From Crossaster papposus (taxonomy: Eukaryota > Echinodermata > Asteroidea > Velatida > Solasteridae): a stretch of 64,000 bases of DNA. The position numbers were made by a program, and so were the translations under genes. Below are positions 2,136 through 61,940 of this stretch, one piece after another. How positions within the stretch are numbered: the stretch's first letter is position 1; every line of letters starts with the position of its first letter. The DNA lies in the NCBI GenBank assembly GCA_037893245.1, contig JBAIAA010000259.1, positions 502,001 through 566,000 on the forward strand. Direction: 5' to 3'. The notes beneath the pieces were generated by a model that worked only from the letters and a program-made list of their open reading frames with translations, ran no database searches and was not told where the DNA came from.

Positions 2136-5100
2136 GTAAGTCTTTTATTTTAGCCTGGTTCCCTGACCTGACAGGAGCGCCGTGGCCTCGTGGCCTCGTG
2201 GCCTCGTGGTCTGTAGCATTGAATTTGTAACCTGTAGGCTAAAGCTGCAGGTTGTGGGTTTGAGTCCGGCCTGGGACTTTGGTGCGTGTGCCCTTGGGCA
2301 AGGCACTTTGTCAATCATTGCTTCTCTCCACCCAGGAGTAAATGGGTACCTGTGAGGGCGGAGATGGTTATTGTGGTTGGTTTAGCTGCTTTGCGCCGAA
2401 ATGGCAGCAATCGAGCTGTATACTCTCCAGGGAGCTGAGATGGTATTTGGAATGTTTCATGGGCCCAATGACCGGGGTAATAATGTTAAGCGCTTTGAGA
2501 CCGTTGGTGATCAAGCGCTGTATAAGCGTACTGCAGACATGGCGTACTGCAGACCTCATACTATTTTTAGACTATACAACATTTCAAAATATAACAGGTT
2601 TTCCCATTGGCTCAAACCCCAACCCCCAAGGGGTATTCTGTGAGCACTCTGCCAAACGCATCAGATTGCATCATTTGTCAAAGTGACTTGGCTGCAGAGT
2701 GCAGCGAAATCCATCAGGTCAGAAACCCTCAAGGTCAAACTGCTTCAGATTCTGCGGTCACCCAACACAGCAGAATCCGTCTCTGGCATTGTTCAATGGG
2801 GATTAGCTCTCGTAGTTTTTTAGACTGGGGTCGTTTATGCACTGATGTTGACAGCTAAATCCATCAAAGTGCACCAGACTTTTTTACCTGTTGCACTGCG
2901 CTGCGTCTGGCAGTGTTAGGGTTAACCAGTTCGCGCCGGATGATGTATATAAACGCAAACATTTCCCAAAATTAAAAACGGATGACGCATAAACACGCCA
3001 AGTTCAAGTTCAGAAATGTATGTCAGCAGCGCGCAAGGCCGTAAATGCGTGGGTGTGATTCCCAGCACTATCAGCCTGAACCCGCTTCTGATCGAGTTTT
3101 GTTAAAAATAATCCCGCCCGTCGGCTCGGCGATGTTAAAATAATCCCGGCGCAAACTGGTTAAATAGAAATTGCCAATGCGAGGTTAGATTTGTTTGCAA
3201 TCCAGAAACTAGAATCTGTATCGTTGGGCATAATTTTGTTATCGTTGTTTATATATGTGCGGCATTCCGTTATATTTTGTTTGCCCTATTTTCCTTCGGT
3301 GCACCGTACTTAGTTTTAACACGGTAATATTGTTGGTCTTCAGTGGTACTCTGAGGCAACTACAGTCCACCCCCTGGGGCAGCGAGATCAGAGATCTCTT
3401 GAATCAAGGAATCAATCGACCAAGGAAAGGCAACGACGCTGGGGACCATCCTCCTATCACACCGATGCGGAGTGCGTCTGAGAGCGAGTTAGGAGGGGAG
3501 GCCTGGAGATTATACGAGTACATTCTACAACACTTCATTGCTACAGTAAGAACCTAGGCCAAATTTCATGGAGCTGCTAAGCATTTTGCTTAGCACAAAC
3601 ACAACAAGTTTTGCTCAGTTAACACAGGTTACCAGACAAAACTTTGTGTGAAACAATTGTGTATATAAATGATACGCTTTGCTGAACTTCATGTTTATCT
3701 CATAATTAGGTTGTCTGGGTTTTATCACTAAACCCTTTCACCAGGGGAGATAAGGCTGGGGTACATATGTAAATGAAACATCATTTTTTTTTAAGTTAAA
3801 GGGAAATTCCAGGCTCAATAATATTTTACCTAGTATAAAAGAATACTGGTAACATATACTGACTCTGCAGAGATTTTGTTTTGATTTGTTATCGAGAACG
3901 ACACACGCGGTTATTATATTCACGATTTCTTGCCATTCAGGAGTTCAAGGGCGCAGCCATATTGTTCAAATTTCCCGCCTCGCCCGGGAAATTATGACGT
4001 AGTGTCTGCACCTCAATGCACATCGCTTTATTGCCTGTTGTTCGGACTGGTATCCCACCTTGACGCGGCCAACTACATTATGCAGACGTATGTTGTACGG
4101 CACCCAACTATTGCGAGTACATGTATTGCATTTCTGTGCAGAATATCGACTTGACGCGCCACAAACTATCGTTTATTTTTGTATTTTCTGAGAAGAATAG
4201 AAAATCTGTGAGCTAGTAATTATGGCATCAGGTCCTTCTCCGTATGATTTTGAGCCCACTTTCACATGTACATGTACTCTACACATTGTGTATACACTAT
4301 GCCGTACAGAAAAGGGTTCACTTGTATTCCTTGCGCGTGCAGGGCCGCTATCAATCGGGCTTCGCGTACTGATGGTGCAGACACTACGTCACAATATCTC
4401 GGATGTACCGATAAACCAGAACAAAATGGTGGCTCGCATGACGGTAAGCGCAGTGCGAGAAAATCTCTGTTTTATATGATTACCGAAACCGATAAAAATG
4501 AAATAAAAATCAAGTCACAATGGAAATTGACACTCTTTTACATTATGCAATTATAAACTATGGGTGGAGTTTCCCTTTAAGAACCTAAAGAATTTAGAAA
4601 AAAAAACTAAATCTAGAAAACAAAAAATTGTCAACTTTGTCCGGGTTTTGTTGGAGCAGGTCACATTTGATACTACACAAAAATTTGCTTAGCACAAAAA
4701 TAGTTTTGCTTAGTGAAAACAGGTTACCAGGCAAAACTCTATGCGCTTTTCATGCTAAAACAAAAACCAGCTGAATATCAGTCACAAACGATAAACATCA
4801 TTTTATTTGTAACCTTGGTTTTTTTCCCAAGCAATAATTTTCATGCTAAGCAAATTTGTGTGCTTACATGTTTTATGAAATTGTGCCCCTGATCTATTGA
4901 GTGCCCTATTTAAGTTTAAATTATTTACTTATTTACTTATTTTTGTTTAGATCAGCTATGATTGTAAAGTACTTACAGAAGACCGTGAGTTTTGTCATCA
5001 ACGAGGAACGGTTCTCCTGCACGGGTAAAACGATCATCGACCCCGGCTTCACGAAATTCATGAAATGGCAGGCAACCGACAGCATGGAGACACTGCCAAC

Positions 5101-8100
5101 CTTCAACGTTGGTGACGTTTGCACTCTAAATGAGGTAACTAATAATAGAGGGTGTCCCCCCAACCTTCAACGTTGGTGACGTTTGCACTCTGAATGAGGT
5201 AACTAATAATATAGGGTGTCCCCCCAACCTTCAACGTTGGTGACGTTTGCACTCTGAATGAGGTAACTAATAATAGAGGGTGTCCCCCCAACCTTCAACG
5301 TTGGTGACGTTTGCACTCTGAATGAGGTAACTAATAACAGAGGGTGTCCCCCCAACCTTCAACGTTGGTGACGTTTGCACTCTGAATGAGGTAACTAATA
5401 TTAGAGGGTGTCCCCCCAACCTTCAACGTTGGTGACGTTTGCACTCTGAATGAGGTAACTAATAATATAGGGTGTCCCCCCAACCTTCAACGTTGGTGAC
5501 GTTTGCACTCTGAATGAGGTAACTAATAACAGAGGGTGTCCCCCCAACCTTCAACGTTGGTGACGTTTGCACTCTGAATGAGGTAACTAATTATAGAGGG
5601 TGTCCCCCCAACCTTCAACGTTGGTGACGTTTGCACTCTGGTAACCTGTTTACTGAGCATAAGTGTTATTGCTAAGCCCCAGTTATGTCTCATTTTGTCA
5701 GAACGTCTCACGATTCCTATTTCTCGCTTACAGATTAAGCTAGTTGAGAGGCTAACCAGCCCCCCAGATTACCTGACTGAAAGTGAACTCATTACGCTCA
5801 TGGAGAAACACGGCGTAGGAACCGACGCCAGTATACCGGTTCACATCGAGAATATCTGCCAACGCAATTACGTTAAGGTGGAGAGTGGACGTCGACTGGT
5901 GCCCACTAGGCTGGGCATTGTTCTCATCCACGGATATCAGAAGGTATATTAAAGGGCGTCCATTTTTGTCTCGCCGAAACAAAGTTTAGAACGCAATCAC
6001 TGTTTCAGTACCTACCGGTAGTTTGTCTGTCGATTGGTCCGTCCGTCCCCCGTTTGTTCGTCTGTTCGTTTGTTCGTCCATCACTGTGTCTGACCGTCAC
6101 TGTGTCGGTCTCTCCGTACATTCGTCACCGTGTCTGTCAGTCTGTCGGTTCCTTGGTTCCTCGGTTCCCCCGTTCGTCCGTCACTGTATTCATTCGTCCG
6201 TCCGTCACTGTGTTCGCTCGCCCGTCCCTCACTGTGTTCGCTCGCCCGTCCCTCACTGTGTTCGTTCGTCCATTCGTTTAAAACAATTGGTCGTGTATAC
6301 AAATTTGAAGTCTAATTGCGATCAAACTTGGGTCATGGATACAATATTGTAACCTTTATATCATGGTTGTGTAAAGGTCAAGTATGGAGGTCAAAGGTCA
6401 TGTTGAGGTCAAGTTGTAAAAGTGGCTGGAATTGTACAATTGGTCTGATTTGAAAACACGAGTATCAATTGCGATCCAACTTTGGCCATGGATGCAGTAT
6501 GAAAACTTCAATGTGATGGTGATAATAAAGGTCACATATTGGGGTCAAATGTCGCTTGAGGTCAAGTTGTAAAATAGGATGATCGCTATATGTAGGCGAG
6601 ACTCGTGGTTCAAGAACCATCCTGATCGTTAGGTTGTTTTTGAATTTAGCGTAGCGGAAAGAGTGGAACAAACTTGACCCCGGGTGTTAGCGTGTTTATA
6701 TGGTAAAACAACATTGAGCAAGTTAGATCAAGGACTACAGTTAACCATAGTTCAACTAACTCTGATCAAACTCTCACTAGTCGACGATGGTTGGACTAGT
6801 GTAGTCAACTATTGGCGACCAACCTACTGCGGTTGGTCATTTTGGTTAAAATAGAAACATTTACATGGCATAGTGCAGCGGGGATCAACTATCAACAACA
6901 AATGACAGACAACAAAAGTTTGCCATGCAAACGCATATTTTTGGGGGGTGTGGGGGGGGGGGACAAGACAATAGACAAGGGGAAACCAGAGATGACCGTA
7001 GAAACGCTTTTTTTAGGGCATTTTTTGTCTCTCCGACATACTGAACTCCACAGAACCTGCAAGAGATGAGATATACGACATTAGATGTACTACAAGTGAT
7101 GTTACCAATAATGTTATGGGTGGTACCAGAAGAGTGGCCAGAAAAGGAGTCAGACTCCTGTTAGTTAGTGTGTAATTTTGTCATTTTTGTCACCATTGTA
7201 GACGATAAGAACTATTATTCTAAACTACGCAAAAACTATTGCAGTGTAAATAAACAAAAGGAACGTGTTAATTTCCCCGGTGTGAGTACAATATTTCCGC
7301 GTCACAAACGTTTGACCATAGTTAGACTAGAGTCGTTCACACTGCAACTTCATGGCGCGTGCGCTAGTGACGTCACAAACCAACCACGAGAAAACCATTG
7401 GTCCTTGATCGAACTTGCTCCTTATTCCCACCGCTCTGTCTGATCTGGTTTAAGATTGACCCCAATCTGTCGCTACCAACGATGCGTTCTGCCATTGAGC
7501 AGCAGCTGAATCTCATAGCCCAGGGCAAGGTGGATTATCACGTCGTTGCTAGTGACATCACAAACCAACCACTAGTCAACCATTGGTTCTTGATCGAACT
7601 TGGTTCTTATTCCCATCGCTCTGTCTGATCTGGTTTCAGATTGACCCCGATCTGTCGCTACCGACGATGCGTTCTGCCGTTGAGCAGCAGCTGAATCTCA
7701 TAGCCCAGGGCAAGGTGGACTATCACGTGGTCCTGAGACACACCCTGGACATCTTTACCAGGAAATTCCAATACTTTGTAGAGCAGATTCAAGGCATGGA
7801 CGAACTCTTTGAAGTGTCCTTCTCGCCGCTGGCTGCTACTGGCAAACCACTGTCGAGGTAACGAATCAAAACGATGTGATTCAAATAAATTTGGATTGGA
7901 AACTTGCCTCTGGATCCTGCCCCTTAACTCCCCACCAAAGACGCACCACATTACCTCCACCCTCCCCACACTAACGCAAAAAAAACCAATCCCCACCACA
8001 AAAACCTCTAAAATTCCGAATATCCAAAATCCCCAATCTCCAAAATCCCCAAAATCCCCCAAATCCCAAATCGCCCAAATCTCAAATCCCCCAAATCTCA

Positions 8101-17989: not shown

Positions 17990-19810
17990 GCGTTCCTTTT
18001 TGGAGATTTGTGTTGAAAGCAAGCAAGTTTGTTTTAGATGTTTTGGATTCGGGTTACAAGATCCCGTTTATAACCACCCCACCTCCATTTATAGCAAAGA
18101 ATAACGCACCAGTCTCGCCCATCCCAAGTTTGTTGAAAAAGCCATTTCTGAGCTCTTGCTGAAACACTGCATTATCGAAGTAAATGGCCCGCCCCATTGC
18201 TGCAATCCCCTCACTGTCGCCGTAGGAAAGAAATTAAGGTTAGTCCTCGACTTGCGCCACCCCAACCAATTCGTTTTAAAAACCAAGTTCAAATACGAAA
18301 ACCTTAACCACATTTCCCAAGTTCTAGATCGCAACCAATACTACCTCGCATTCGACCTCGAGTCTGGTTATCACCACGTAGATATTTTTGCTCCCCATCA
18401 AAAATTCCTCGGATTTTCTTGGCGTTTTCGAAACTCTTCCAAATTCTACGTTTTTCGCGTCTTGCCTTTCGGTCTTTCTAGCGCATGTTACATCTTCACT
18501 AAGATCACCAGACCACTCATTTATCACTGGCGAGCGCAAGGCATCACATCATTTGCTTACATCGACGACGGCATTATAGTTTCTCCAGATCTGACCACTG
18601 CCCTATACAACAGTCGTATAGTCAAAGAGGCTTTAGTCAATAGCGGCTTCGTACCAAATGAAGCGAAATGCATTTGGCATCCCCAAACTACCATTAAGTT
18701 TCTCGGCATGATTATAGATTCGCGCACACTAACCTTTTCCGTGCCCAATACCAAAATTGCGAAACTTAAAGCTTCAATCGCGACTGCCCTATCGGACCAC
18801 ACGCTATCTAACCCTATCTAAGTTCGATACATCGCTAGCATCGCTGGCCAGATAATATCTATGTCGCCAGCTCTAGGTCCAGTTACGCGCCTCATGACGC
18901 GTGCCACTTATAGATCCATTGAATCTAGGTTATCATGGTCCGACGTCGTGCAATTATCTCGCGACTCTACCTCTGAACTAAAATTCTGGCAAACAAACCT
19001 CGACGCATACAATGGATTTTCCATTAAACATCAGCACACACCATCTCTCGTAATCTATTCAGACGCAAACGACACCGGCTAGGGCGGATACGTCCAAGAT
19101 GCCCCCCAAATGAAACTTAACGGCACGTGGTCGGAAACCGAAAGGTCGCGAAGTTCAACTTGGCGAGAGCTAGCCGCCGTTCTAAGAATACTAGGTGAAT
19201 TAAGCGACCATTGCGCACACGAGAAACTCAGGTGGCACACGGATAACACTAACGTACCCCGAATCATAGCGCACGGTAGCACAAAACCCGACCTACAGTC
19301 GCTAGCAATCTCCATCTTCAACCTGTGTTTGAAACATAATATCGTCCTTATGGCGGAGTGGATACCCAGAAATATTAATGCTATCGCAGATAACATCAGT
19401 AGGGTCACCGACTACGACGACTGGTCCGTTGACGAGATAAGTTTCGCGCTCGTCGACAAACTTTGGGGTCCCCATTCCATAGATCGTTTTGCTTCCCCTA
19501 CTAACTTCAAAGTCCCAACTTTTAATTCCAGATTTTGGTGCAAGGGGTCAAAGGGGGTAGACGCTTTTCTGCCAGAATTGGCTTAACGAGATCAATTATA
19601 CTTGTCCCCCAGTTTCCCTCATAGTTGCCGTTTTGAGCCACTTTGCGAAATGCAGAGCTTATGGCACTCTTATTGTCCCAAAATGGACATCGGCCTATTT
19701 TTGGCCATCTTTATGTTCCGATGGCGTTCATTTAAACAGTTTTGTCCACGACTGACGCCTACTCAGAATTTCCTTTGCCCCACCATTAATCGACCAGGGG
19801 TCAGTTTTTA
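17990..19810 (+). pseudogene. Reverse transcriptase/RNase H of the PAT-like element (two stops, frameshifts)
   Basis: The N-terminal part (FVLDVLDSGYKIPF at 18028) is in one frame and shifts near 18100. RT blocks follow: GKKLRLVLDLRHPN, LAFDLESGYHHVDIF, FRVLPFGLSSACYIFTK and the catalytic SFAYIDDGIIVS at about 18550. RNase H motifs are YSDANDTG, STWRELAAV, WHTDNT and EWIPRNINAIADNISR. In-frame stops occur at 18819-18821 (TAA) and 19080-19082 (TAG, where a conserved Trp codon is expected). Another shift near 19585 leads into the DIRS-typical CPPVSLIVAVLSH and GTLIVPKWTSAYFWPSL. The enzyme is not made as sequenced. Confidence 0.9.
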
Positions 19811-31062: not shown

Positions 31063-32760
31063 AATATTCATTTTCCGAGGCAGCCATTATTTCGCTAGAA
31101 ATTGAAAAAATGCTTCAAAAGGAGCCATTGTAGAGACATGCCACAGTAAGGGCGAATTTATTTCTAACATTTTTTCTCAGACCCCCCAAAAGACGGGTCA
31201 TTCCGCCCCATTATTAATCTCAGAGGGCTGAATGCGTTTGTACAATACACGCATTTCAAAATGGAGACCATTCAATTATTATTACAGCTAATCCGCTCTA
31301 ACTGGTACATGGCATTAATCGATTTGAAGGACGCATATTTTTCAGTGCCAGAACATAGAAAATTCCTGCGTTTTGTCTGGCGTACAAAAGTGTATGAGTT
31401 TACATGCCTCCCTTTTTGGCTGTCATGTGCCCCCCGTGTATTTACTAAGGTTTTGAAACCTTTAGTTGCGTCATTGAGACGCATGGAGCACGAGTCTTGT
31501 GATTACATAGACGACTCGTTACTAATCGGCACAACTTTACAATAATGCTTAGATAATGTACAAGCAAGAATTACGCTTACCGAAGCGCTTGGGTTTTATT
31601 CAATGCCGATAAATTGGTAACTAAACCCTCCAATGAGATAACCTTTCTTGGGTTTGTATTGAATTCTATTCACATGGCCATTTCTATACCGCCTACCAAG
31701 GCAACTCATGTAGTTAACATAACAAAACTACTTGCAGCAACTCGCTTTAAAGTCCGGGAAGTTGCGCAAGTGATTGGTATCTTAGTCTCATGTGAATTAG
31801 CAGTACCATATGACACGCTCTTCAGGGGAGCCATAGAGAATGATAAGACTCAAGCTCTAGCCAAAATCAATGGCGACTTTGATTCCACGATGGCCTTGTC
31901 AGATTTAGCTAAGTCAGATTTAGACTGGTGGAAAACCAATATACCACATGCATCCGCCCCTATACATCGTGAGTTGCCCAGGGACCTTATTCACGAAGCA
32001 TCCGCTATTACCGGGTCCGTAACAGCCTTTGCGGATGGCCTAACGGATACGTTAGAATTGCGCTACGCCGTAATCACGAAAGGTTCCGTTGTGCTACAGT
32101 CACACGGTCAAATACGTATGCTGCGGATTTTTTATATTTTTTATCCGCAGAAAATCACTTAAAAACTGCGCAGAAAAGTTAAATTAGCCATGAAATACGG
32201 ATAATTGCGGATGAATTACGGATAAATACCGACATTTACGCCTAAATGAAAAACAATTGCGGCAGGTGACATCTAATTTTTACGGATGCTGCGGATAGTT
32301 ACGGATGACTTTCGGATGACTTACGGAGACTTGCAGAGACTTACGGGGAGATACGGAGACTTACGGAAAGATGCGGTTTACTTTCGCGTCCGCATTCTCC
32401 AATTTTCATCAGCAGCGGACGCGACGCCATTTCAGTCGCATTTTTGATGCCAAGAGGACAAGTTCTGCTTTATTTTTCACAAATATATATAGATTGTGTA
32501 GGACTGTCTACAAGATGTCTGCGGAAGAAATACGGATAGTTTACGGAGAGTTACGTATATTACGGATAATTACAGATGCATTGCGGATTTTTATCCGCGG
32601 GAAATTTAAAAAATATTTTGAGATTGTTAAAATCCATTACGGATAGATACGGATTCTGCGGATTTGTTACGGACAAAAATCCGCAGCGTCCGCAAGATCC
32701 GTATATGACCGTGTGACTGTAGCATTAGGTATCGGTAAAATTGCGGAGCTTCGCTAATAA
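31063..32760 (+). pseudogene. Reverse transcriptase/RNase H of the DIRS/Ngaro-like element
   Basis: Blocks in order are GEFISNIFS, then one frame over DPPKDGSFRPIINLRGLN, FKMETIQLLLQLIRSNWYMA, LIDLKDAYFSVPEH, YEFTCLPFWLSCAPRVFTK and the catalytic CDYIDDSLLIG (about 31500). The thumb follows (EITFLGFVLNS, FKVREVAQVIGIL), and then ITGSVTAFADGLTD as the start of RNase H. A stop at 31543-31545 and frame changes disable it. A TA-flanked MITE (32097-32719) interrupts RNase H; the frame continues in register on the other side to a stop at 32754-32756. Confidence 0.85.
32097..32719. mobile_element. TA-flanked MITE (Tc1/mariner-like termini)
   Basis: The inverted ends CAGTCACACGGTCA are flanked by TA (32095-32096 and 32720-32721). 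Excising the element with one TA rejoins the host RT/RNase H frame. The interior is a mosaic of TTACGGA and TGCGGAT motifs without an ORF. Confidence 0.88.
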
Positions 32761-34789: not shown

Positions 34790-35910
34790 TGTAAAATGCA
34801 CAATTTTACTCTTGACTAGCGTGGTTAAGATCAGAGGACGGGCCTCTACATAAGAGAGAACAATGGATGGGCCCTGTGTGTTCAATTGCAACCTAACATG
34901 GTTAAGATAATAAGTTTTGCAGTGGACGGGCCCTGCGTTTTGGTTTTTAATCTAATGTAGTTAAGATCAGAGGATGAGAGATAGTTATAAGTTACGCAGC
35001 GGACGCGCCCTGTGTACTGAATTTAAATCTAACATTGTTAAGATCAGACGATAAGAGATAAGTAACGCAGTGAACAGGCCCTGTGTGTTGAATTTAAATC
35101 TAGCAAAGATCAAAGGATAAGAGAGAATAGAAGTAACGCAGTGGATGGGCCATGCGTGTTGAATTTAAATCTAACATTGTTAAGATTATAGAATAAGAGG
35201 AATTAGAAGTTGCGCAGTGGATGATCCCTGCGTGTTGAATTTAAATCTAACATTGTTAAGATTATAGAATAAGAGGAATTATAAGTTGCGCAGTGGATCC
35301 GGTCCCTGCGTGTGGAATTTAAATCTAACATTGTTAAGACTATAGAATAAGAGGAATTAGAAGTTCCGCAGTGGATGGGCCTAGCGTGTTGAATTTAAAT
35401 CTAACATTGTTAATATTATATAATAAGAGGAATTCGAAATTGCGCAGTGTATGGGCCCTGTGTGTTAAATTTAAATCTAACATTGTTAAGATTATAGAAT
35501 AAGAGGAAATATAAGTTGCGCAGTGGATGGGCCCTGCGTGTTGAATTTAAATCTAACATTGTTAAGATCAGAGGTTAAGAGGGAATAGGAGTTACGCAGT
35601 GGACAGGCCCTGTGTGTTGAATTTGTAATCTAACATGTTTATTATTAGATCAGAGGTGCGTGGGGCCTCCGCGTGAGAGACAATATAAGTTCCGCGTGGA
35701 CGGGCCCTGCGTGTTAAATTTGGATGTAACTGATTAAGATCAGAGGACGGGCCTCTGCATTTGAGACAAAAGGAGTTTCGCAGTGGATAGGCCCTGCGTG
35801 TTAAATTTAGAATTTAACTGATTAAGATCAGAGGACGGGCCTCTGCATGAGAGACAAATAGAAGTTCCGTAGTGGATAGGCCCTGCGTGTTAAATTTGAA
35901 TTTAACTGAT
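34790..35910. repeat. About 76-bp satellite (TGAATTTAAATCTAACATTG units)
   Basis: CTAACATTGTTAAG recurs at 35171, 35247, 35325, 35401, 35477 and 35552, a 75-78 base period. More diverged units extend to both sides (GATCAGAGGACGGGCCTC type). Roughly fourteen units are present. Confidence 0.88.
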
Positions 35911-36585
35911 TAACCATAACCCCCTAGGTCCTACTTTGGGCTAAAGAACTGCTGCAAAACTGCCGTTTTCAACGTATAGATGAATCCATTCAAACATACA
36001 TGGGCATTGTGGGCCAGTAGCCCTGTATCCCTATAGTAAATTAACGTCACATGGTCTTCCTGAGAATGAAACAACCTTTTCTTTGTATTGTTATATGTAT
36101 GTGTGTGAAAAAGTGCCTGAGTAAAGTGGTAATGGCAATAATTACAATAAATTAGACTGTACAAAAATTAGACTGTACACAAATATATTAACTGTACACA
36201 GTTACAGTAGGCTTTGACCCACAGGAGGAAATCTGAGGAAACGGGGCGCTTTATGTATGGAACTCGGCGTCGAGAAAAGTCCCACACGCAGCATTTATCT
36301 TTTTTGTTTTTGTTCTGCGCGTATTTGCGAACTTGTGAAGCTCATCTGCAAAATTAATTTATCAACTAAATGAACATCGTTCAAGGTATGGGGCGGTCTT
36401 GTAGGTTCATTCAGGACGCATTTCCCAGTTCCGCGCTATTTTGCTTCCCGGGCTCGTTTGGCGTCTGCAAGTCTATCGAGATGTTCCCGAAGGCGAGGGC
36501 GGAGTTCTAAGCGAGGAGTGACGACACGAGACCCCAACATAATATACCCGTCATTGACGCTCCTTGGCACCGTGGAGTATGGAAA
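35911..36585. other. Intergenic sequence with a possible short minus-strand coding block
   Basis: On the minus strand about 36600-36437 is open and reads GYIMLGSRVVTPRLELRP and LREHLDRLADAKRAREAK before a stop. The composition is protein-like, but no family or splice site is recognisable. It could be a terminal exon of an unknown gene. Confidence 0.3.
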
Positions 36586-45992: not shown

Positions 45993-46260
45993 AAAGGTAG
46001 GATACACCATTGGTAATTGTTTGAATTATCATGAATGGGTAGATTTGGGGGGTTGTATCTTATAGTAAATATCGTTTAACTGACCTGTCCGAAGTTTTAC
46101 AATCACGGATGCCGAGAAAAGCACAAAAAACAGCGTTTGTTTTATCTTCTTTTTTTTGCGAGATGCCTAGAATCATTATTTACTTTCAAATAAGTAAGAT
46201 ATTTCTTAATAATTCGGTAGTAAATATTTTCGATATCTGCAAATGGTGTATCCTACCTAT
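45993..46260 (+). mobile_element. MITE of the AAGGTAGGATACACC family, complete copy
   Basis: It starts AAGGTAGGATACACCATT next to TA and ends AAATGGTGTATCCTACCT. It defines both ends of the family used to interpret 50600-61501. Confidence 0.85.
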
Positions 46261-46564
46261 AAATTTAAACCAAGAAAACTTAACGAAAGTAATTTTCTTT
46301 TTGACAGATGTAAATGGTTTATTTAATGCTTCATTTGTACTTTTATCGACATCTCTTTCATAATTTGTTATTTTATTTTGTGAAAACAAGATGTTAATAA
46401 TATTTTGCAACTAAAGATTATAAAAAAAAATGTGCAAATGAGTTTTAATTCTTTGTGTGGAATACAATTATACAATTATACAATTATACAATGATGTATA
46501 AAACGTCATATCGTAACATTGCTATCGCTCCTGACGTTAGCCCTTGGGTCTAGACTAGTAGTAA

Positions 46565-50553: not shown

Positions 50554-50929
50554 AAGCAAGGAGGGGGAACCAAAACATGGGTGCGATGAGACACATTTAA
50601 AGGTAGTATACACCATTGGTCATTGCTTGAATTATCATGAATAAGTAGATGTGGGGGATTGTATTTTATAGTAAATATCGTTTAACTGAGCTGTCCGAAG
50701 TTTTACAATCATGGATGCCGAGAAAAGCACGAAAAACAGTATTTTTTCAACCGGCGTCGAGCAGTTATTCTGGAGCAATTGCAGAATACCCCGCCACGCG
50801 AAAGCAACCCCCTAAATACAGCGGATACCGGATACGGGGTGGATCGTAAGCGAAGAGCCAAGGAGAAGAGTGATCACGAGAGGTCGCAGTTTTCCCCCAA
50901 CATCTGGCTTGTGCCAAGCACGGACTTTT

Positions 50930-53900
50930 AGAGGCGGATACTCGGTGGGCCCGGGTGGGCCAAGCACGCACGCAGCGCAAATGGATAGGGGATCTCGTAA
51001 AAACGACTAAGTCCAAAGGAGTTCCCCCATACGCGGATACGCGGATACTCGGTGGGCCGGGGGGGGGGGGGGGGGGGGGGGGGTGGAACAGCCAGGCACG
51101 CACGCAACGCAAATGAATAGGGGATTTCGTAAAAACGACTAAGTCCAAAGGAGTTCCCCCGAGGCGGATACGCGGATACGCGGATACTCGGTGGGCCCGG
51201 GTGGGCCAAGCACGCACGCAACGCAAATGGATAGGGGATCTCGTAGAAACGACTAAGTCCAAATGAGTTCCCCCCGAAGCGGATACGCGGATACGCGGAT
51301 ACTCGGTGGTCCGGTGGGGGGGGGGGGGGGGGGGGGGGGGGGTTGGAACAGCCAGGCACGCACGCAACGCAAATGAATAGGGGATTTCGTAAAAACGACT
51401 CAGTCCAAAGGAGTTCCCCCCGAAGCGGATACGCGGATACTCGGTGGGCCAGGGGGGGGGGGGGGGGGGGGGGGGAACAGCCAGGCACGCACGCAACGCA
51501 AATGAATAGGGGATTTCGTAAAAACGACTCAGTCCAAAGGAGTTCCCCCCGAAGCGGATACGCGGATACTCGGTGGGCCGGGGGGGGGGGGGGGAGGGGT
51601 GGAACAGCCAGACACGCACGCAACGCAAATGAATAGGGGATCTCGTAAAAACGACTAAGTCCAAAGGAGTTCCCCCGAGGCGGATACGCGGATACGCGGA
51701 TACGCGGATACTCGGTGGGCCCGGGTGGGCCAAGCACGCACGCAACGCAAATGGATAGGGGATCTCGTAGAAACGACTAAGTCCAAATGAGTTCCCCCCG
51801 AAGCGGATAAGCGGATACGCGGATACGCGGATACTCGGTGGGCCGGGGGGGGGGGGGGGGGGTGGAACAGCCAGGAACGCACGCAACGCAAATGAATAGG
51901 GGATCTCGTAAAAACGACTAAGTCCAAAGGAGTTCCCCCGAGGCGGATGCGCGGATACGCGGATACGCGGATACTCGGTGGGCCCGGGTGGGCCAAGCAC
52001 GCACGCAACGCAAATGGATAGGGGATCTCGTAGAAACGACTAAGTCCAAATGAGTTCCCCCCGAAGCGGATAAGCGGATACGCGGATACGCGGATACTCG
52101 GTGGGCCGGGGGGGGGGGGGGGGGGGGGGCGGGTGGAACAGCCAGGCAGGCACGCAACGCAAATGAATAGGGGATCTCGTAAAAACGATAGGCGGATAGG
52201 CGGATACGCGGATACGCGGATATGCGGATACTCGGTGGGCCCGGGTGTGCCAAGCACGCACGCAACGCAAATGTATAGGGGATCTCGTAAAAACGACCAA
52301 GTCCAAATGAGTTCCCCCCGAAGCGGATACGCGGATACGCGGATACTCGGTGGGCCGGGGGGGAGGGGGGGGGGGGGGGGGGGGCGGGTGGAACAGCCAG
52401 GCAGGCACGCAACGCAAATGAATAGGGGATCTCGTAAAAACGACTAAGTCCAAAGGAGTTCCCCCCTACACGGATACGCGGATACTAGGTGGGCCGGGGG
52501 GGGGGGGGGGGGGGAGGGTGGAACAGCCAGGAACGCACGCAACGCAAATGAATAGGGGATCTCGTAAAAACGACTAAGTCCAAATGAGTTCCCCCGAAGC
52601 GGATAAGCGGATACGCGGATACGCGGATACGCGGATACTCGGTGGGCCGGGGGGGGGGGGGGGGGGGGGGGGCGGGTGGAACAGCCAGGCAGGCACGCAA
52701 CGCAAATGAATAGGGGATCTCGTAAAAACGATAGGCGGATAGGCGGATACGCGGATACGCGGATACGCGGATACTCGGTGGGCCCGGGTGTGCCAAGCAC
52801 GCACGCAACGCAAATGTATAGGGGATCTCGTAGAAACGACCAAGTCCAAATGAGTTCCCCCCGAAGCGGATACGCGGATACGCGGTGGGCCGGGGGGGGG
52901 GGGGAGGGTGGAACAGCCAGGAACGCACGCAACGCAAATGAATAGGGGATCTCGTAAAAACGACTAAGTCCAAAGGAGTTCCCCCGAGGCGGATACGCGG
53001 ATACGCGGATACTCGGTGGGCCCGGGTGGGCCAAGCACGCACGCAACGCAAATGGATAGGGGATCTCGTAGAAACGACTAAGTCCAAATGAGTTCCCCCC
53101 GAAGCGAATACGCGGATACGCGGATACTCGGTGGGCCGGGGGGGAGGGGGGGGGGGGGGGGGGGGGCGGGTGGAACAGCCAGGCAGGCACGCAACGCAAA
53201 TGAATAGGGGATCTCGTAAAAACGACTAAGTCCAAAGGAGTTCCCCCCTACACGGATACGCGGATACTCGGTGGGCCGGGGGGGGGGGGGGGGAGGGTGG
53301 AACAGCCAGGAACGCACGCAACGCAAATGAATAGGGGATCTCGTAAAAACGACTAAGTCCAAATGAGTTCCCCCGAAGCGGATAAGCGGATACGCGGATA
53401 CGCGGATACGCGGATACGCGGATACTCGGTGCGCCGGGGGGGGGGGGGGGGGGGCGGGTGGAACAGCCAGGCAGGCACGCAACGCAAATGAATAGGGGAT
53501 CTCGTAAAAACGATAGGCGGATAGGCGGATACGCGGATACGCGGATACGCGGATACTCGGTGGGCCCGGGTGTGCCAAGCACGCACGCAACGCAAATGTA
53601 TAGGGGATCTCGTAGAAACGACCAAGTCCAAATGAGTTCCCCCCGAAGCGGATACGCGGATACGCGGTGGGCCGGGGGGGGGGGGGAGGGTGGAACAGCC
53701 AGGAACGCACGCAACGCAAATGAATAGGGGATCTCGTAAAAACGACTAAGTCCAAAGGAGTTCCCCCGAGGCGGATACGCGGATACGCGGATACTCGGTG
53801 GGCCCGGGTGGGCCAAGCACGCACGCAACGCAAATGGATAGGGGATCTCGTAGAAACGACTAAGTCCAAATGAGTTCCCCCCGAAGCGGATACGCGGATA

Positions 53901-54692
53901 CTCGGTGGGCCGGGGGGGGGGGGGGAGGGTGGAACAGCCAGGAACGCACGCAACGCAAATGAATAGGGGATCTCGTAAAAACGACTAAGTCCAAAGGAGT
54001 TCCCCCGAGGCGGATACGCGGATACGCGGATACTCGGTGGGCCCGGGTGGGCCAAGCACGCACGCAACGCAAATGGATAGGGGATCTCGTAGAAACGACT
54101 AAGTCCAAATGAGTTCCCCCCGAAGCGGATACGCGGATACGCGGATACTCGGTGGTCCGGTGGGGGGGGGGGGGGGGGGGGGGGGGTGGAACAGCCAGGC
54201 ACGCACGCAACGCAAATGAATAGGGGATTTCGTAAAAACGACTCAGTCCAAAGGAGTTCCCCCCGAAGCGGATACGCGGATACTCGGTGGGCCAGGGGGG
54301 GGGGGGGGGGGGGGGGGAACAGCCAGGCACGCACGCAACGCAAATGAATAGGGGATTTCGTAAAAACGACTCAGTCCAAAGGAGTTCCCCCCGAAGCGGA
54401 TACGCGGATACTCGGTGGGCCGGGGGGGGGGGGGGGGGGGGGAGGGGTGGAACAGCCAGACACGCACGCAACGCAAATGAATAGGGGATCTCGTAGAAAC
54501 GACTAAGTCCAAATGAGTTTCCCCCGAAGCGGATACGCGGATACGCGGATACTCGGGGGGCCAGGGGGGGGGGGGGGGGGGGTGGAACAGCCAGGCACGC
54601 ACGCAACGCAAATGAATAGGGGATCTCGTAAAAACGACTAAGTCCAAATGAGTTCCCCCCGAAGCGGATACGCGGATACTCGGTGGTCCGGT

Positions 54693-54726
<34 letters not shown>

Positions 54727-56189
54727 GGAACAGCCAGGAACGCACGCAACGCAAATGAATAGGGGATCTCGTAAAAACGACTAAGTCCAAAGGAGTTCCC
54801 CCGAGGCGGATACGCGGATACGCGGATACGCGGATACTCGGTGGGCCCGGGTGGGCCAAGCACGCACGCAACGCAAATGGATAGGGGATCTCGTAGAAAC
54901 GACTAAGTCCAAATGAGTTTCCCCCGAAGCGGATACGCGAATACGCGGATACGCGGATACTCGGTGGGCCGGGGGGGGGGGGGGGCGGGGGGGGGGGGCG
55001 GGGGGGGGGGGGCGGGTGGAACAGCCAGGCAGGCACGCAACGCAAATGAATAGGGGATCTCGTAAAAACGATAGGCGGATAGGCGGATACGCGGATACGC
55101 GGATACGCGGATACTCGGTGGGCCCGGGTGTGCCAAGCACGCACGCAACGCAAATGTATAGGGGATCTCGTAGAAACGACCAAGTCCAAATGAGTTCCCC
55201 CCGAAGCGGATACGCGGATACGCGGATACTCGGTGGGCCGGGGGGGAGGGGTGGGGGGGGGGGGGGGGGGGGGGGGGTGGAACAGCCAGGCAGGCACGCA
55301 ACGCAAATGAATAGGGGATCTCGTAAAAACGACTAAGTCCAAAGGAGTTCCCCCCTACACGGATACGCGGATACTCGGTGGGCCGGGGGGGGGGGGGGGG
55401 GGGGGGAGGGTGGAACAGCCAGGAACGCACGCAACGCAAATGAATAGGGGATCTCGTAAAAACGACTAAGTCCAAAGGAGTTCCCCCGAGGCGGATACGC
55501 GGATACGCGGATACTCGGTGGGCCCGGGTGGGCCAAGCACGCACGCAACGCAAATGGATAGGGGATCTCGTAGAAACGACTAAGTCCAAATGAGTTCCCC
55601 CCGAAGCGGATACGCGGATACGCGGATACTCGGTGGTCCGGTGGGGGGGGGGGGGGGGGTGGGGGGGGGGGGGGGGGGGTGGAACAGCCAGGCACGCACG
55701 CAACGCAAATGAATAGGGGATTTCGTAAAAACGACTCAGTCCAAAGGAGTTCCCCCCGAAGCGGATACGCGGATACTCGGTGGGCCAGGGGGGGGGGGGG
55801 GGGGGGGGGGGGAACAGCCAGGCACGCACGCAACGCAAATGAATAGGGGATTTCGTAAAAACGACTCAGTCCAAAGGAGTTCCCCCCGAAGCGGATACGC
55901 GGATACTCGGTGGGCCGGGGGGGGGGGGGGGGGGGGGGGGGGAGGGGTGGAACAGCCAGACACGCACGCAACGCAAATGAATAGGGGATCTCGTAGAAAC
56001 GACTAAGTCCAAATGAGTTCCCCCCGAAGCGGATACGCGGATACGCGGATACTCGGGGGGCCAGGGGGGGGGGGGGGGGTGGAACAGCCAGGCACGCACG
56101 CAACGCAAATGAATAGGGGATCTCGTAAAAACGACTAAGTCCAAATGAGTTCCCCCCGAAGCGGATACGCGGATACTCGGTGGTCCGGT

Positions 56190-56220
<31 letters not shown>

Positions 56221-57030
56221 GGAACAGCCAGGAACGCACGCAACGCAAATGAATAGGGGATCTCGTAAAAACGACTAAGTCCAAAGGAGTTCCCCCGAGG
56301 CGGATACGCGGATACGCGGATACGCGGATACTCGGTGGGCCCGGGTGGGCCAAGCACGCACGCAACGCAAATGGATAGGGGATCTCGTAGAAACGACTAA
56401 GTCCAAATGAGTTTCCCCCGAAGCGGATACGCGGATACGCGGATACGCGGATACTCGGTGGGCCGGGGGGGGGGGGGGGGGGGCGGGGGGGGGGGGGGGG
56501 GGGGGGGGGGCGGGTGGAACAGCCAGGCAGGCACGCAACGCAAATGAATAGGGGATATCGTAAAAACGACTAAGTCCAAAGGAGTTCCCCCGAGGCGGAT
56601 AGGCGGATAGGCGGATACGCGGATACTCGGTGGGCCCGGGTGGGCCAAGCACGCACGCAACGCAAATGTATAGGGGATCTCGTAAAAACGACCAAGTCCA
56701 AATGAGTTCCCCCCGAAGCGGATACGCGGATACGCGGATACTCGGTGGGCCGGGGGGAGGGGGGGGGGGGGGGGGGAGGGGGGGGGGGGGGGGGGGGGCG
56801 GGTGGAACAGCCAGGCAGGCACGCAACGCAAATGAATAGGGGATCTCGTAAAAACGACTAAGTCCAAAGGAGTTCCCCCCTACGCGGATACGCGGATACT
56901 CGGTGGGCCGGGGGGGGGGGGGGAGGGTGGAACAGCCAGGCACGCACGCAACGCAAATGAATAGGGGATTTCGTAAAACGACTAAGTCCAAAGGAGTTCC
57001 CCCGAGGCGGATACGCGGATACTCATTGGG
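50930..57030. repeat. 6-kb poly(G)-rich satellite with GGATACGC octamers
   Basis: Roughly 140-bp monomers repeat about forty times. Each has a CACGCACGCAACGCAAATG block, AATAGGGGATCTCGTA, ACGACTAAGTCCAAA, two to five GGATACGC octamers, CTCGGTGGGCC and, in most monomers, a G run of about 12 to 40. Two monomer types alternate (GGGCCCGGGTG against the G-run type). A block at 52676 recurs 782 bp later, and one ending near 54863 recurs about 1494 bp later. The minus strand is open in several frames over hundreds of codons; this is a repeat artefact, not a gene family. Confidence 0.95.
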
Positions 57031-57443
57031 GAGATATTATTTAGGTTCATAATTAACCAATAACAATTGATACAGTCCCTAGTTAATTGTATACAGTCCA
57101 TAGTTTTCCGTATACACGACTTTTATACCTTTTTCTATAAAACCCTATCTAGATGATATTATTTAGGTGCATAATTAACCAATAAAAATGGATACAGTCC
57201 CTAGTTAATTGGATACAGTCCCTAGTATTTCGTATACAGGACTTTTATACCTTTTTCTATAAAACCCTATCTAGATGATATTATTTAGGTGCATAATTAA
57301 CCAATAAAAATGGATACAGTCCCTAGTTAATTGGATACAGTCCCTAGTTTTTCGTATACACGACTTTTATACATTTTTTCTATAAGACCCTATCTAGATG
57401 ATATTATTTAGGTGCATATTTAACCAATAAAAATGGTACAGTC
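57031..57443. repeat. 123-bp satellite (GATACAGTCCCTAGTTAATT), left part
   Basis: Units of 122-123 bases contain TTATTTAGGTGCATAATTAA, GATACAGTCCCTAGTTAATT and CTATAAAACCCTATCTAG. AGGTGCATA recurs at 57165, 57287 and 57410. It resumes at 58503 after an insertion. Confidence 0.92.
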
Positions 57444-58502
57444 TCGTTTACGGGTAGTACGGTATCCGGGTACCCTATTCCCGTCACGGTCGGGTACCCG
57501 GGTATCCGTGACTATTATTAGAATCATAACAAAAACCCGGAAGTATACACCGCGTCGGCATGTGCATGTACATCCCCGCTCACTCCACTAGCAAGCTGCA
57601 GCGCGACTGCCGCGCTGGCATGGCGCGCTTACTTCCCCTGCATTCCGCAACTAAACAAATGCACGGGCCTACTTTGCAACTCAGGGTTCGACGCAAACAA
57701 ATTCTAGTCACTCAAAACAGCGGCGGTCTAGTCAAAACCCTTTTCTACTAGTCCGGCGGTCCAGTGAAAAAAAAAAAAAAATAAGTTAAGTGCGCGGTTT
57801 TCAGAGCCAGATTGTCAACACCGATCCCGTATTGTGTAGAGTTTACTCTCAGCTTAATAAATGTTTGTAAATTAATTGACTTGCCGCTCCCCATAATTGC
57901 ACGTCTACAGTGGCACGTCTTTTTCCAAAATAAATAAGGTTCAATGAACTAAATCCTTTGAGTGAGCGGACACGAAATGTAGCAAAAAAGCCGACCGCAG
58001 TTCCTGGCTGGCCGCAGAGTTGATACAATAGAACCGAATACCTCTCCTGCAGTATCAGGTTTCAAAACCACATTCCAGGTACGGGTCCGTGGGATCGTGA
58101 ATTAATTCAGCACATTTTCCAAAAAGTAAACCTCGGAAAAACTTACTCAAAGGACAACTGTTACAAAACACTGATACAATGTCAGCCGCAAGTTATAGCA
58201 GCTGTCAGAATTGTCGGTAAATAGACTTCAGAGGCATTTTTTATCACAATGACTACAAAGAAAGCACAATCATCCGTTAGGCTGCTATCTAGACATCGGG
58301 AAATTGTCGGTAAAGACGTTTTACTCAGATGTTTTCTAACAGTTTATCGGAACGCAATGAACATAAAAGACGCTTGCCTTTCTGAAATAATGTGTCAATA
58401 TTTACAAAGGCAGTTTCGGGTAATAAAATCGATAAATTGGAGCCGGGTACCCGCAATCAGCGGTCGGGTTACGGGTACCCGGGTACCCGGCACGGCCTAA
58501 AT
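57444..58502. mobile_element. hAT-like insertion in the 123-bp satellite
   Basis: TACAGTC is present on both sides (57437-57443 and 58503-58509). Both ends are rich in CGGGTACCCGGGTA palindromes and loosely inverted. The ORF at 58249-58500 is not a recognised protein. Confidence 0.6.
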
Positions 58503-58880
58503 TACAGTCCCTAGTTAATTGGATACAGTCCCTAGTTAATTGGATACAGTCCCTAGTTTTTCGTATACACGACGTTTATACATTTTTTCTATAAGACCCT
58601 ATCTAGATGATATTATTTAGGTGCATATTTAACCAATAAAAATGGATACAGTCCCTAGTTAATTGGATACAGTCCCTAGTTTTTCGTATACACGACTTTT
58701 ATACATTTTTTCTATAAGACCCTATCTAGATGATATTATTTAGGTGCATAATTAACCAATACAAATGGATACAGTCCCTAGTTAATTGTATACAGTCCCT
58801 AGTGTTTCGTATACACGACTGTTATACCTTTTTCTATAAGACCCTATCTAAATGTGATTATTTAGGTGCATAATAAACCA
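58503..58880. repeat. 123-bp satellite, right part
   Basis: Three further units continue from TACAGTCCCTAG, with AGGTGCATA at 58619, 58741 and 58863. Confidence 0.92.
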
Positions 58881-59639
58881 ATAATTTTGGTTATCAACCG
58901 TGTAGTACGTGTATTGACCAGTATTGTTTAAGATATAACAAGTGTCGCTGTTGTATTTTTTGACCAGACAAACTGTAAGTACTATGGCCAAATTCGCGTA
59001 AAGCGTAAATAATGAATTACATGTACCTATAAACTGATGTATGATTGATTAACGTAGTTAGTGTTCAGCAACTCCAAAAAAATATCTGACATGACCAACT
59101 ACTATCTTCACGAATGCGTTGATTTAGGGGTGTGTGTACATGTACGTGTAGTAGTAAATGTCGTTTAACTTAAAATGCGGGTTCGAAAACGCCCTATGCT
59201 GTATAGCGCAAATGGTTGGCCATGATTTCGAAAAAGCCCTATGCTCTATAGCGCATTAGGGGTGTACAGCCGCAACAAACCCACGATTTTAACTATGCCC
59301 TACGCTCTAAATACAGCGCATGGCCGGTTGTTTATTGAGCAGGTGTACTGTGTGAAGCTAGTATAAGATAGCGTTCAAACTCCCCTGTGAATCCCCGCGA
59401 CACGGGCGACGGGCGACAGTGGGGAGTTTTCGCGATGCGAAATCGCAAAAGTTGAACACATTTCAACTTGGGCGAAGGTTCGCAGCAAATGCTTTGTGAC
59501 ATCAAATCCGTATCACATTCGCTTTCGTGTGAAGTATGAACCGGCCTTTATAGTTGACCGGGTGTTAACTCGCAACAAACCCCTGATTTTGACAAAGCCC
59601 TATGCTCTAACCATGGAGACTACCTCCATGCTCTAACCA
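58881..59639. repeat. Diverged repeats with AAGCCCTATGCTCTA
   Basis: AAAGCCCTATGCTCTATAGCGC-like blocks (in pieces of under 20 bases) occur at about 59190, 59240, 59290 and 59597. GACCGGGTGTTAACTCGC and AACAAACCCCTGAT near 59570 match the tandem repeat at 61140-61420. The MULE-like element is inserted in this sequence. Confidence 0.65.
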
Positions 59640-61077
59640 TAGAGAAAGGACCACAGAAGGAGTTTGAACTTACCGGGCTTCAAAGCGCCTCACGTTCGTC
59701 GCCGCGCTGATAAAGATCTGCGGTTTTACGACCGCAATTAGGCTAGTGTAAACATTGTCGGTCACTCAGCGAGTGCTGCACTCTGACCTTCACTTTCGCT
59801 TGGTCAGCTTTATGGGTACTGCGCATGCTTAATTATTACAACTCTCTCGCGTCCTCGATAATTTGATAATTAGTTTGATAGCAAATTGCAATAAAAACAA
59901 CAGGCCTAATAATAAATGTAATTATTAAATAAATCAAACAATAAGTACAATTATACTTTCAATGCAGTATATTGATTTCTTGATTGTTTTGCCCTTTCTC
60001 TATGGTTTTACTAGCGCCATGCTTTTAGTTTACAAAATGATCATACCATAGAATTCGCTAAAAATTATTAACACACTGCTAGTGCTGGCTCAGGACGACG
60101 AGATTTAATTCTTCAGATTACAATAAGTTATATAATTATTGTTGATTGATCAAACAAAATTATTGCAAGACTTTGAAATTGAGCATTTTACAACAGTCCA
60201 TGTGTATCAAAAATGTTATTTTGTAATCCATCAAGGGATCAAATTAAACGTAACTTTTTGTTCCATCAATAGATTGTCCTTTAACATGTTTAAGTTAACA
60301 ATACTATAGTAAATACGTTAAAATTTTAATTTGAATTAAAATTTCCATACCTCTTGGAAATCGCAACAAATTATACTATTTTCGACATGGACAAAATCAT
60401 TTCAAAGTTGCTTTGTATACAGTAGGAATGGTCATGCTGATTTGTGCCTTGTTTACAAAAAAAATCGTTAAAACTTAAAATATTCTCGATTTTCAAGTTT
60501 TTTGTTTACAGTTGGGTAACACTGGGGAACGTAATGGCATACATCACAAGAAAGCCCATTTCATGACAAAGAACATGCACTATTTCGTTAGCATGCAGGG
60601 TCATGCATTTTCATGAAAATATCATATTTAATAACCTATCCCCTATGATTGATTTTTTTCATAAACGGACCATTATTTACTGAAAACTTGGCCGATTTTC
60701 GCCGAACAAACGTTGAAATATACTGCTTCGAATATAGAAACTGCACATCGGTACTTCACGTGGTATGAGTCACCAATAAACACTGTGCATGCGTTAAAGC
60801 TTCGCTTGTTCACATTTTTTCTCTCCAGAAAGTGGGAAATCGCTGCAGTGAAGTGACGTCAGCGTTGAGTTTTTCACCGTACAACGCATAGGAGGTTACC
60901 GATTACCAGCTAAAATGTCGGCGACGAACGTATCGCGTCAAAGGAGGCTTGCGGTCAGTGGTCCAGCTTGCGGTCGTAGTGCTTTAGCAATGGGCATACA
61001 AAGGGGGTCTGATAACAGTAATTGGCTTAGATTTTATCGCCCGGAAAGTTCAAACTCCTTCTGTGGTCCTTTCTCTA
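59640..61077. mobile_element. MULE-like element with 11-bp duplication
   Basis: The inverted ends start TAGAGAAAGGACCACAGAAG and are about 40 bases with one mismatch. TGCTCTAACCA flanks it at 59629-59639 and 61078-61088. Long inverted termini and a 9-11 bp duplication suggest a Mutator-like element. There is no transposase ORF in its 1438 bp. A caveat is that the flanking sequence already repeats the TGCTCTAACC motif. Confidence 0.8.
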
Positions 61078-61129
61078 TGCTCTAACCAACGTACGTCAAC
61101 AACCTTTTCAGGTGTTTGTACGTTTCCGA

Positions 61130-61430
61130 AACAGAAACAGAAGCATTATGGTTGACCGGGTGTTCACCGCAACAAACCCCTGATTTCGACAAAGCCATAT
61201 ACTATAGCGCGTAGTTGGCCGGGTGTTTATTGAGCTCAATGAACCGTGACAGCGTATCGGCGTATCCGGATACGGAGTGCATGGACGGGCATTATGGTTG
61301 ACCGGGTGTTCAGCCGCAACAAACCCCTGATTTCGACAAAGCCCTATACTATAGCGCGTAGTTTGCCGGGTGTTTATTGAGAGCAATAAACCGTGACCGC
61401 GTATCCGTGTATCCGGATACGGAGTGCATA
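61130..61430. repeat. About 145-bp tandem duplication
   Basis: GCATTATGGTTGACCGGGTG at 61143 recurs at 61289. Each unit ends with GTATCCGGATACGGAGTGCAT, here quoted only in part as ATCCGGATACGGAGTGCAT. Confidence 0.88.
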
Positions 61431-61503
61431 GAAGTGTGGCGGGGTATTCTGCAATTGTGCCGTAAATATTTTTGCTATCTGCAAATAGTGTATCCTATCT
61501 TTA

Positions 61504-61940
61504 AGAAGGGGTAGTGTTAAAATCAGGTTCATTAGTAATCAGGAGAAATTGTGAAAAGAGTTGCCAATTTTCCAGTTGTGGGAAAACAAATAATTTGGAG
61601 AAATCGGGAAAAAGCTTGTACTTGTGAAAAGTTTCAATTTCTCACGGATTTTGGGAGATTTATCAGGGGAATGAATAGCAGAGAAAACTGGAGAAATTTT
61701 GGTTTTCATAAAGTGTTCGGAACCCTGTTTAACATATCACTATAATAAATTAGTTTCTTGTCCTTGCACGCATCCTTTTTTTTTTTTTTTGAAATGATGA
61801 AAATCTGAGTCATTTTCACATCGGCACATTACTCCCAATCGTGGTTTTAGTCAAATACAGAGCATAGTATGCAGGACCAGTACTGGAGTCTAATTATCAT
61901 CATATGACGCGACTCTATATAATGTTGTGATAAGTCTATA
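61504..61940. other. Intergenic sequence, no gene seen
   Basis: Nothing recognised apart from short T runs. Confidence 0.4.

Follow-up and report, generated by a model that had tools for sequence, protein, structure and literature searches.

The window analysed here is a 64,000-nucleotide stretch of the Crossaster papposus genome (GenBank assembly GCA_037893245.1, contig JBAIAA010000259.1, positions 502,001 to 566,000). At 50772-61461 it contains a 10,690 bp transposable element with arrays of satellite repeats between its ends. This element is very probably a non-coding copy of a cut-and-paste transposon family of the Merlin superfamily, with the satellites as built-in cargo. The original prediction for this locus, made from the sequence alone, had described a 10.9 kb composite with the ends of a miniature inverted-repeat transposable element (MITE) on the outside and an inverted pair of 22-bp repeats within. 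Its observation was confirmed with changed boundaries, and its interpretation was partly supported.

The 22-bp inverted pair (CAATTGCAGAATACCCCGCCAC) is perfect and lies at 50776-50797 (plus strand) and 61436-61457 (minus strand); its 18-mer and 14-mer cores are unique to that pair within the window. Alignment with other copies shows that the pair forms the inward portion of longer terminal inverted repeats (26 bp, of which 24 positions match), and the boundaries of the element were therefore shifted to 50772 and 61461. The repeat ends read GGAG... and GGCA..., i.e., the unit starts with GGAG and finishes with TGCC. The palindromic CAATTG was considered as a target duplication and rejected because other copies place CAATTG inside the longer end. 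GGATAC motifs are found at 50823 and 50830 and at 61268 and 61415, plus reversed copies, and those at the two inner ends have the same inward orientation, which bears out their prediction at both sites. The features of the element and its surroundings are as follows.

45994-46262, plus strand: separate uninterrupted MITE copy, used as comparison reference
50600-50771, plus strand: left-hand remnant of the target MITE, with 91% identity to 45994-46141 over 50600-50747
50772-61461, plus strand: complete non-coding element, very probably Merlin-type, 10,690 bp (ends by alignment with 20 other paired copies)
50772-50797, plus strand: left terminal inverted repeat, 26 bp, GGAGCAATTGCAGAATACCCCGCCAC
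50821-50835, plus strand: left subterminal GGATAC motifs
50934-57024, plus strand: sat1, 46 anchored units of about 108-173 bp
57033-57443, plus strand: sat2, a 122-bp repeat, first part
57441-58500 (edges approximate), no strand assigned: hAT-like insert with GGGTACCCGGGTA ends, inside sat2
about 58500-58884, plus strand: sat2, second part (tandem repeat at 58520-58884)
59175-59613, plus strand: sat3, a degenerate 147-bp repeat, first part
59638-61079, no strand assigned: MULE-like insert; inverted ends of 41 nt (98%), with repeated ATGCTCTAACCA as its flanks
61091-61432, plus strand: sat3, second part, continuing into the right end
61401-61420, minus strand: right subterminal GGATAC motifs, in inward orientation as on the left
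61436-61461, minus strand: right terminal inverted repeat (26 bp), matching its left counterpart at 24 of 26 positions
61462-61504, plus strand: right remnant of the target MITE (88% identical to 46220-46262; also placed by an empty-site alignment)

The satellites lie between the inner repeats, as had been predicted. The same prediction counted the hAT-like and MULE-like pieces (labels taken from it alone) among the parts of the mobile unit. Neither piece is present in any of 20 other copies, so both are insertions particular to the window copy. A Pfam search of three internal open reading frames of the window element, which lie in these pieces, gave no match. The window copy itself encodes no transposase and has no target duplication.

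Family ends, target duplications and transposase

We searched the assembly holding the window (1.02 Gb, 1841 contigs) for further copies. Confinement of the inner repeats to this locus would have spoken against a mobile unit, but they occur elsewhere: the 18-mer core has 143 exact copies genome-wide (66 forward and 77 reverse) and its reversed control has 0. Using end patterns of 29 and 32 bases, with left and right ends counted at an equal limit of up to three mismatches, we identified 128 left ends, compared with 63 right ends, and the controls had 0 matches. Forty of the 63 right ends face a left end within 13 kb and none does so in the wrong orientation, among the 100 of 128 left ends listed. 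The facing pairs give element sizes from 765 to 12,113 bp. Two of the 40 paired right ends share one left end on contig C481, and C72/C93, and perhaps C693/C1182, may be one site counted twice. At the C481 locus (L027) the two right ends are 1077 bp apart and the flank that follows them is identical, which indicates that the right end and its flank were duplicated in tandem.

Twenty loci with two facing 18-mer copies, at separations of 1.1 to 8.1 kb, were fetched and compared with the window copy. Perfect 8-bp target duplications flank 14 of these 21 copies, and 15 of 22 once a further copy (L034, described below) is added; the window copy is in both sets and not among the copies with a perfect duplication. 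In 462 cross pairings of flanks the sole match was between L011 and L012, two copies at a single site. L023 was excluded from the tally; its flanks carry identical 8-base sequences provided that the last four bases of the element are counted as lost. The left end begins with GGAG or GGAA in all 22 copies. An inward-pointing GGATAC is located no more than 80 bp from the left end in 21 of 22 copies, and the count for the right end is likewise 21 of 22. The inner inverted repeats of the original prediction are thus the ends of a real mobile unit with satellites and many other copies. At about position 85-95 of L014, a 4-base filler in the left subterminal region makes TAGCTGGC, which equals the target duplication of this copy and may be chance.

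The right end on C7 is adjoined by a 259-amino acid open reading frame, of which a 125-amino acid part matches DDE_Tnp_IS1595 (PF12762; E 1.6e-18). C25 has an open frame of 393 amino acids with the same domain (E 3.7e-22), in which candidate D, D and E sites were picked by eye. A genome search with the 259 residues of the C7 frame returned 22 matches, and nine contigs matched at 81% identity or more. Seven of these nine close transposase loci (on C7, C25, C693, C1182, C356, C597 and C877) lie 1.1-4.2 kb from a right end of the family, always in the same orientation. L034, on C693, is a complete 3757-bp copy with a perfect duplication (GAAATATT) and comprises, in order, the left end, sat1 (131-1166), a transposase region interrupted by stop codons, and the right end. 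The C25 transposase has sat2 upstream and the right end downstream. About 20 kb separate the sat1 array of this locus from that right end, and no left end turned up in the stretch read, so C25 is not claimed as a complete copy. L013 has a perfect duplication and both satellites, matches L033 on both flanks of the transposase without having the transposase itself, and is a deletion derivative.

The PF12762-type transposase (ISXO2/IS1595), the GG ends and the 8-bp duplications together place the family in the Merlin superfamily. Duplications of about 8 bp are likewise left by hAT, P or MULE elements and cannot alone decide the superfamily, but the GG ends and the PF12762 transposase beside the right end in seven of nine loci make any superfamily other than Merlin highly improbable. 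We also considered L024, an 8-kb copy, as the source of the family transposase and rejected it. Its 500-amino acid frame is DDE_Tnp_4 (Harbinger type) and belongs to a Harbinger-type element, at 3738-5240 of L024, that sits as a nested insertion within the left end of a further family copy.

Satellite arrays inside and outside the family

The satellites belong to the element and are present in coding and non-coding copies. Among the 20 other copies, sat1 is found in 18 and sat2 in 17; L018 and L020 are without both arrays and L012 is without sat2. Non-coding copies span 0 to 42 sat1 cores. Each sat1 unit contains 2-5 GGATAC in GCGGATAC runs, mostly plus a G-run, and the window array has 36 G-runs of at least 10, the longest of 33. 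On the left-to-right strand, the 22 copies together have 125 G-runs of at least 10 versus 16 C-runs. The left satellite (sat1) and the sat3 type on the right are unrelated to each other except for GGATAC. Comparison of the two subterminal stretches with sat1 gave matches that beat 500 of 500 shuffles each, and the matching part is the octamer itself.

Arrays differ between copies at one site. L011 and L012 share 392 of 396 bases in one flank and 395 of 396 in the other, yet the copies measure 4493 and 3855 bp and have 13 and 15 sat1 cores and 9 and 0 sat2 cores, respectively. The two lie on different contigs, which makes them either two haplotypes or a recent duplication. Across 208 sat1 units from 19 copies, the nearest relative is in the same copy for 44% (8.7% expected from the array sizes), and in the window copy 97% of 37 units are nearest to a unit of the same copy. 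This local homogeneity fits growth of the arrays at their present place, and the change may have proceeded by slippage at the G-runs or by unequal exchange.

The original prediction had named occurrence of the satellite elsewhere, without the inner repeats, as evidence against it. For sat1 (628 genome matches) this is mostly not the case: 30 of 33 clusters lie within 13 kb of a listed end, among the matches listed. The three exceptions are C245 (an array of at least 16 cores whose left edge shows no end), C1685 (a short fragment) and the C25 array noted above. For sat2 it is the case, as only 16 of 39 clusters are near an end, among the matches listed (899 first-look candidates, 40 scored). 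Six end-free sat2 loci read over 3.6-4.5 kb contain no family end at up to three mismatches; three end matches with four mismatches, at L043 and L044, are probably fortuitous. Among the six, L042 contains a sat1-like array as well and resembles a family member in decay.

Satellite DNA in the classical sense forms large arrays that do not depend on a mobile element; of the two repeats, sat2 is widespread and sat1 is almost confined to the family. These distributions bear on whether the transposon captured independent genomic satellites instead of producing them, an explanation whose probability we put only just short of even. In its favour, 23 of the 39 listed sat2 clusters have no family end within 13 kb, and among the end-free loci the flanks of L039, L040 and L043 are mutually similar. 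With most listed sat2 clusters away from ends, sat2 is also an independent dispersed repeat, for which capture is a fair explanation. The distribution of sat1 speaks against capture, as does the fit of its GGATAC core to both subterminal regions, and sat1 alone is more likely to be home-grown.

The window insertion and the target MITE

Several observations weigh against the reading of the window element as a copy of a mobile Merlin family with satellite cargo. A perfect duplication is missing from seven of the 22 copies, the 128 left ends outnumber the 63 right ends by a factor of two, and 23 of the 63 right ends have no partner among the 100 of 128 left ends listed. Two of the nine close transposase loci, C760 and C192, have no right end listed nearby, and none of the coding copies is at once intact in frame and complete at both ends (L034 has stops, and the stretches read at C25 contain no left end). 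Arrays of sat1 without a visible end exist at C245 and C1685. At the window insertion itself, 116-138 bp of the target MITE are missing relative to four intact copies, and the flanks agree at 5 of 8 bases, short of a target duplication.

The missing target and absent duplication point to an insertion with deletion, or to recombination between two copies. Under the latter explanation the window copy is a hybrid, formed by recombination in the satellites of two copies located at different places in MITEs, and not a single insertion. This is a serious possibility that we rate somewhat below even. It would account at once for the loss of target DNA, for the lack of a duplication and for the sat1 array being the longest. 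Both ends of the element are complete to the last base despite the target loss, yet the sequences they abut in the window (GTTATTCT and GTAAATAT) are separated by 116, 137, 137 and 138 bp in the four intact MITEs; L009, L018, L021, L025 and L027 are also without a perfect duplication. An aberrant insertion that deleted part of its target, however, yields an identical picture.

The outermost ends match a MITE, as originally noted (91% and 88% identity to the reference copy), and the full 172-bp left remnant is up to 99% identical to intact genome copies. A TA flank is present at the putative outer edge of the MITE, and the four intact MITE copies also share the outer bases ACATTTA of the window. 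The MITE is the target only, and not, as had been proposed, an outer layer of the mobile unit. Although MITE ends do flank the whole structure, there is very little to recommend joint movement of MITE ends, inner repeats and satellites as a three-layer composite, since the 20 other inner-end pairs have differing flanks with 8-bp duplications abutting the inner ends, the inner unit occurs without the MITE, and intact MITE copies exist without any element.

Proposed mechanism, known systems and other repeats

Under the Merlin reading, transposase from coding relatives in the same genome (or from their ancestors) would bind the ends and mobilise non-coding copies in trans, leaving 8-bp target duplications. 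GGATAC would be a putative binding site of the transposase. The sat1 array starts beside the left end and is built of units that share GGATAC with both subterminal regions, with sat2 next to it; it would grow at its present place by either of the routes suggested above. The window copy would have landed in a MITE. We also put forward, as an unlikely extension, that sat1 is an amplified array of putative transposase-binding sites, in which the GGATAC clusters near the ends were multiplied into a satellite. If so, longer sat1 arrays might capture transposase for their own copy, or titrate transposase and restrain the family; the G-runs would be an unstable hinge that lets array length shift at each insertion, and the satellite unit would be selected as transposon control DNA.

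The origin of dispersed satellite arrays is an open question, and this one family presents several stages together: coding copies with an array, non-coding copies with 0 to 42 sat1 cores, one site with differing arrays, and a few end-free arrays. Because ends, duplications and transposase are all identifiable, seeding by transposition is separable from later growth in place and can be dated. Satellite repeats can thus travel to new places inside a transposon and then grow or shrink there.

Merlin elements with internal tandem repeats have been described, in a paper whose authors propose that Merlin may spread proto-satellites (PMC8101967). In the passages compared, those elements share with the present family the GG ends, 8-9-bp duplications, a DDE_Tnp_IS1595 transposase and internal tandem repeats, but their units are few (e.g., 3-4 of 163 bp), whereas this family has two satellites unrelated to each other, as many as 46 sat1 units containing G-runs, and arrays that differ at one site. 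The "undescribed element" of the original prediction therefore stands for the family, as far as searched, and not for the kind. Neither the passages compared (PMC8101967, PMC12628747) nor the abstract of PMC4079207 describe a Merlin family whose copies, coding as well as non-coding, contain two large complex satellites and whose arrays differ at one site. According to that abstract, the foldback transposon Tetris of Drosophila virilis is similar in having tandem repeats inside a DNA transposon, with longer satellite arrays of the same unit, and in being probably non-autonomous; its repeats lie in both inverted repeats, unlike the internal, one-sided arrays and short inverted repeats described here (PMC4079207). 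Foldback elements such as Tetris and Galileo are bounded on either side by long inverted repeats that consist of tandem repeats, and the inverted repeats of the window element are 26 bp. Helitrons are not known to have such inverted repeats or target duplications, both of which are present in this Merlin family. Satellites of Helitrons or Helentrons, such as Cg170/HindIII of Crassostrea gigas, resemble the present ones, in the passages compared, in that arrays occur in elements, standalone or one-sided (PMC12628747). Literature searches with GCGGATAC or GGATACGCGG gave, among the matches listed, none about a satellite by title, and a search combining CAATTG, target site duplication, terminal inverted repeats and DNA transposon found none; the family is not thereby unpublished.

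Ends related to those of the family also form same-strand clusters. C195:3540503-3697607 has 17 listed same-strand matches of a related core (GAATACCCCGCCAC). The three that were read (L029 is 3583400-3591400) adjoin 84-bp tandem repeats, and their ends begin with GGCACAAATTCAG; we take these repeats to resemble zinc-finger genes. C279 and C414 have runs of left ends, mostly on one strand, with no right ends listed, and one left end on C279 (L030, 2567500-2572500) is near a fibrinogen_C/PAN frame. We considered a centromere-like array for these clusters and rejected it, since the three C195 matches that were read lie beside an 84-bp tandem repeat and one of the C279 matches lies beside a fibrinogen-domain frame; duplication of gene families looks likelier.

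Elsewhere in the window, a 389-amino acid open frame at 21034-22203 matches DDE_Tnp_4 (Harbinger type; E 4.8e-26), and further tandem arrays are located at 5096-5640 (8.5 copies of a 64-bp unit) and 34912-35913 (76-88-bp units). Open frames at 18105-18821 and 31168-32162 resemble reverse transcriptase, and other frames in the window look like TOP3B exons.

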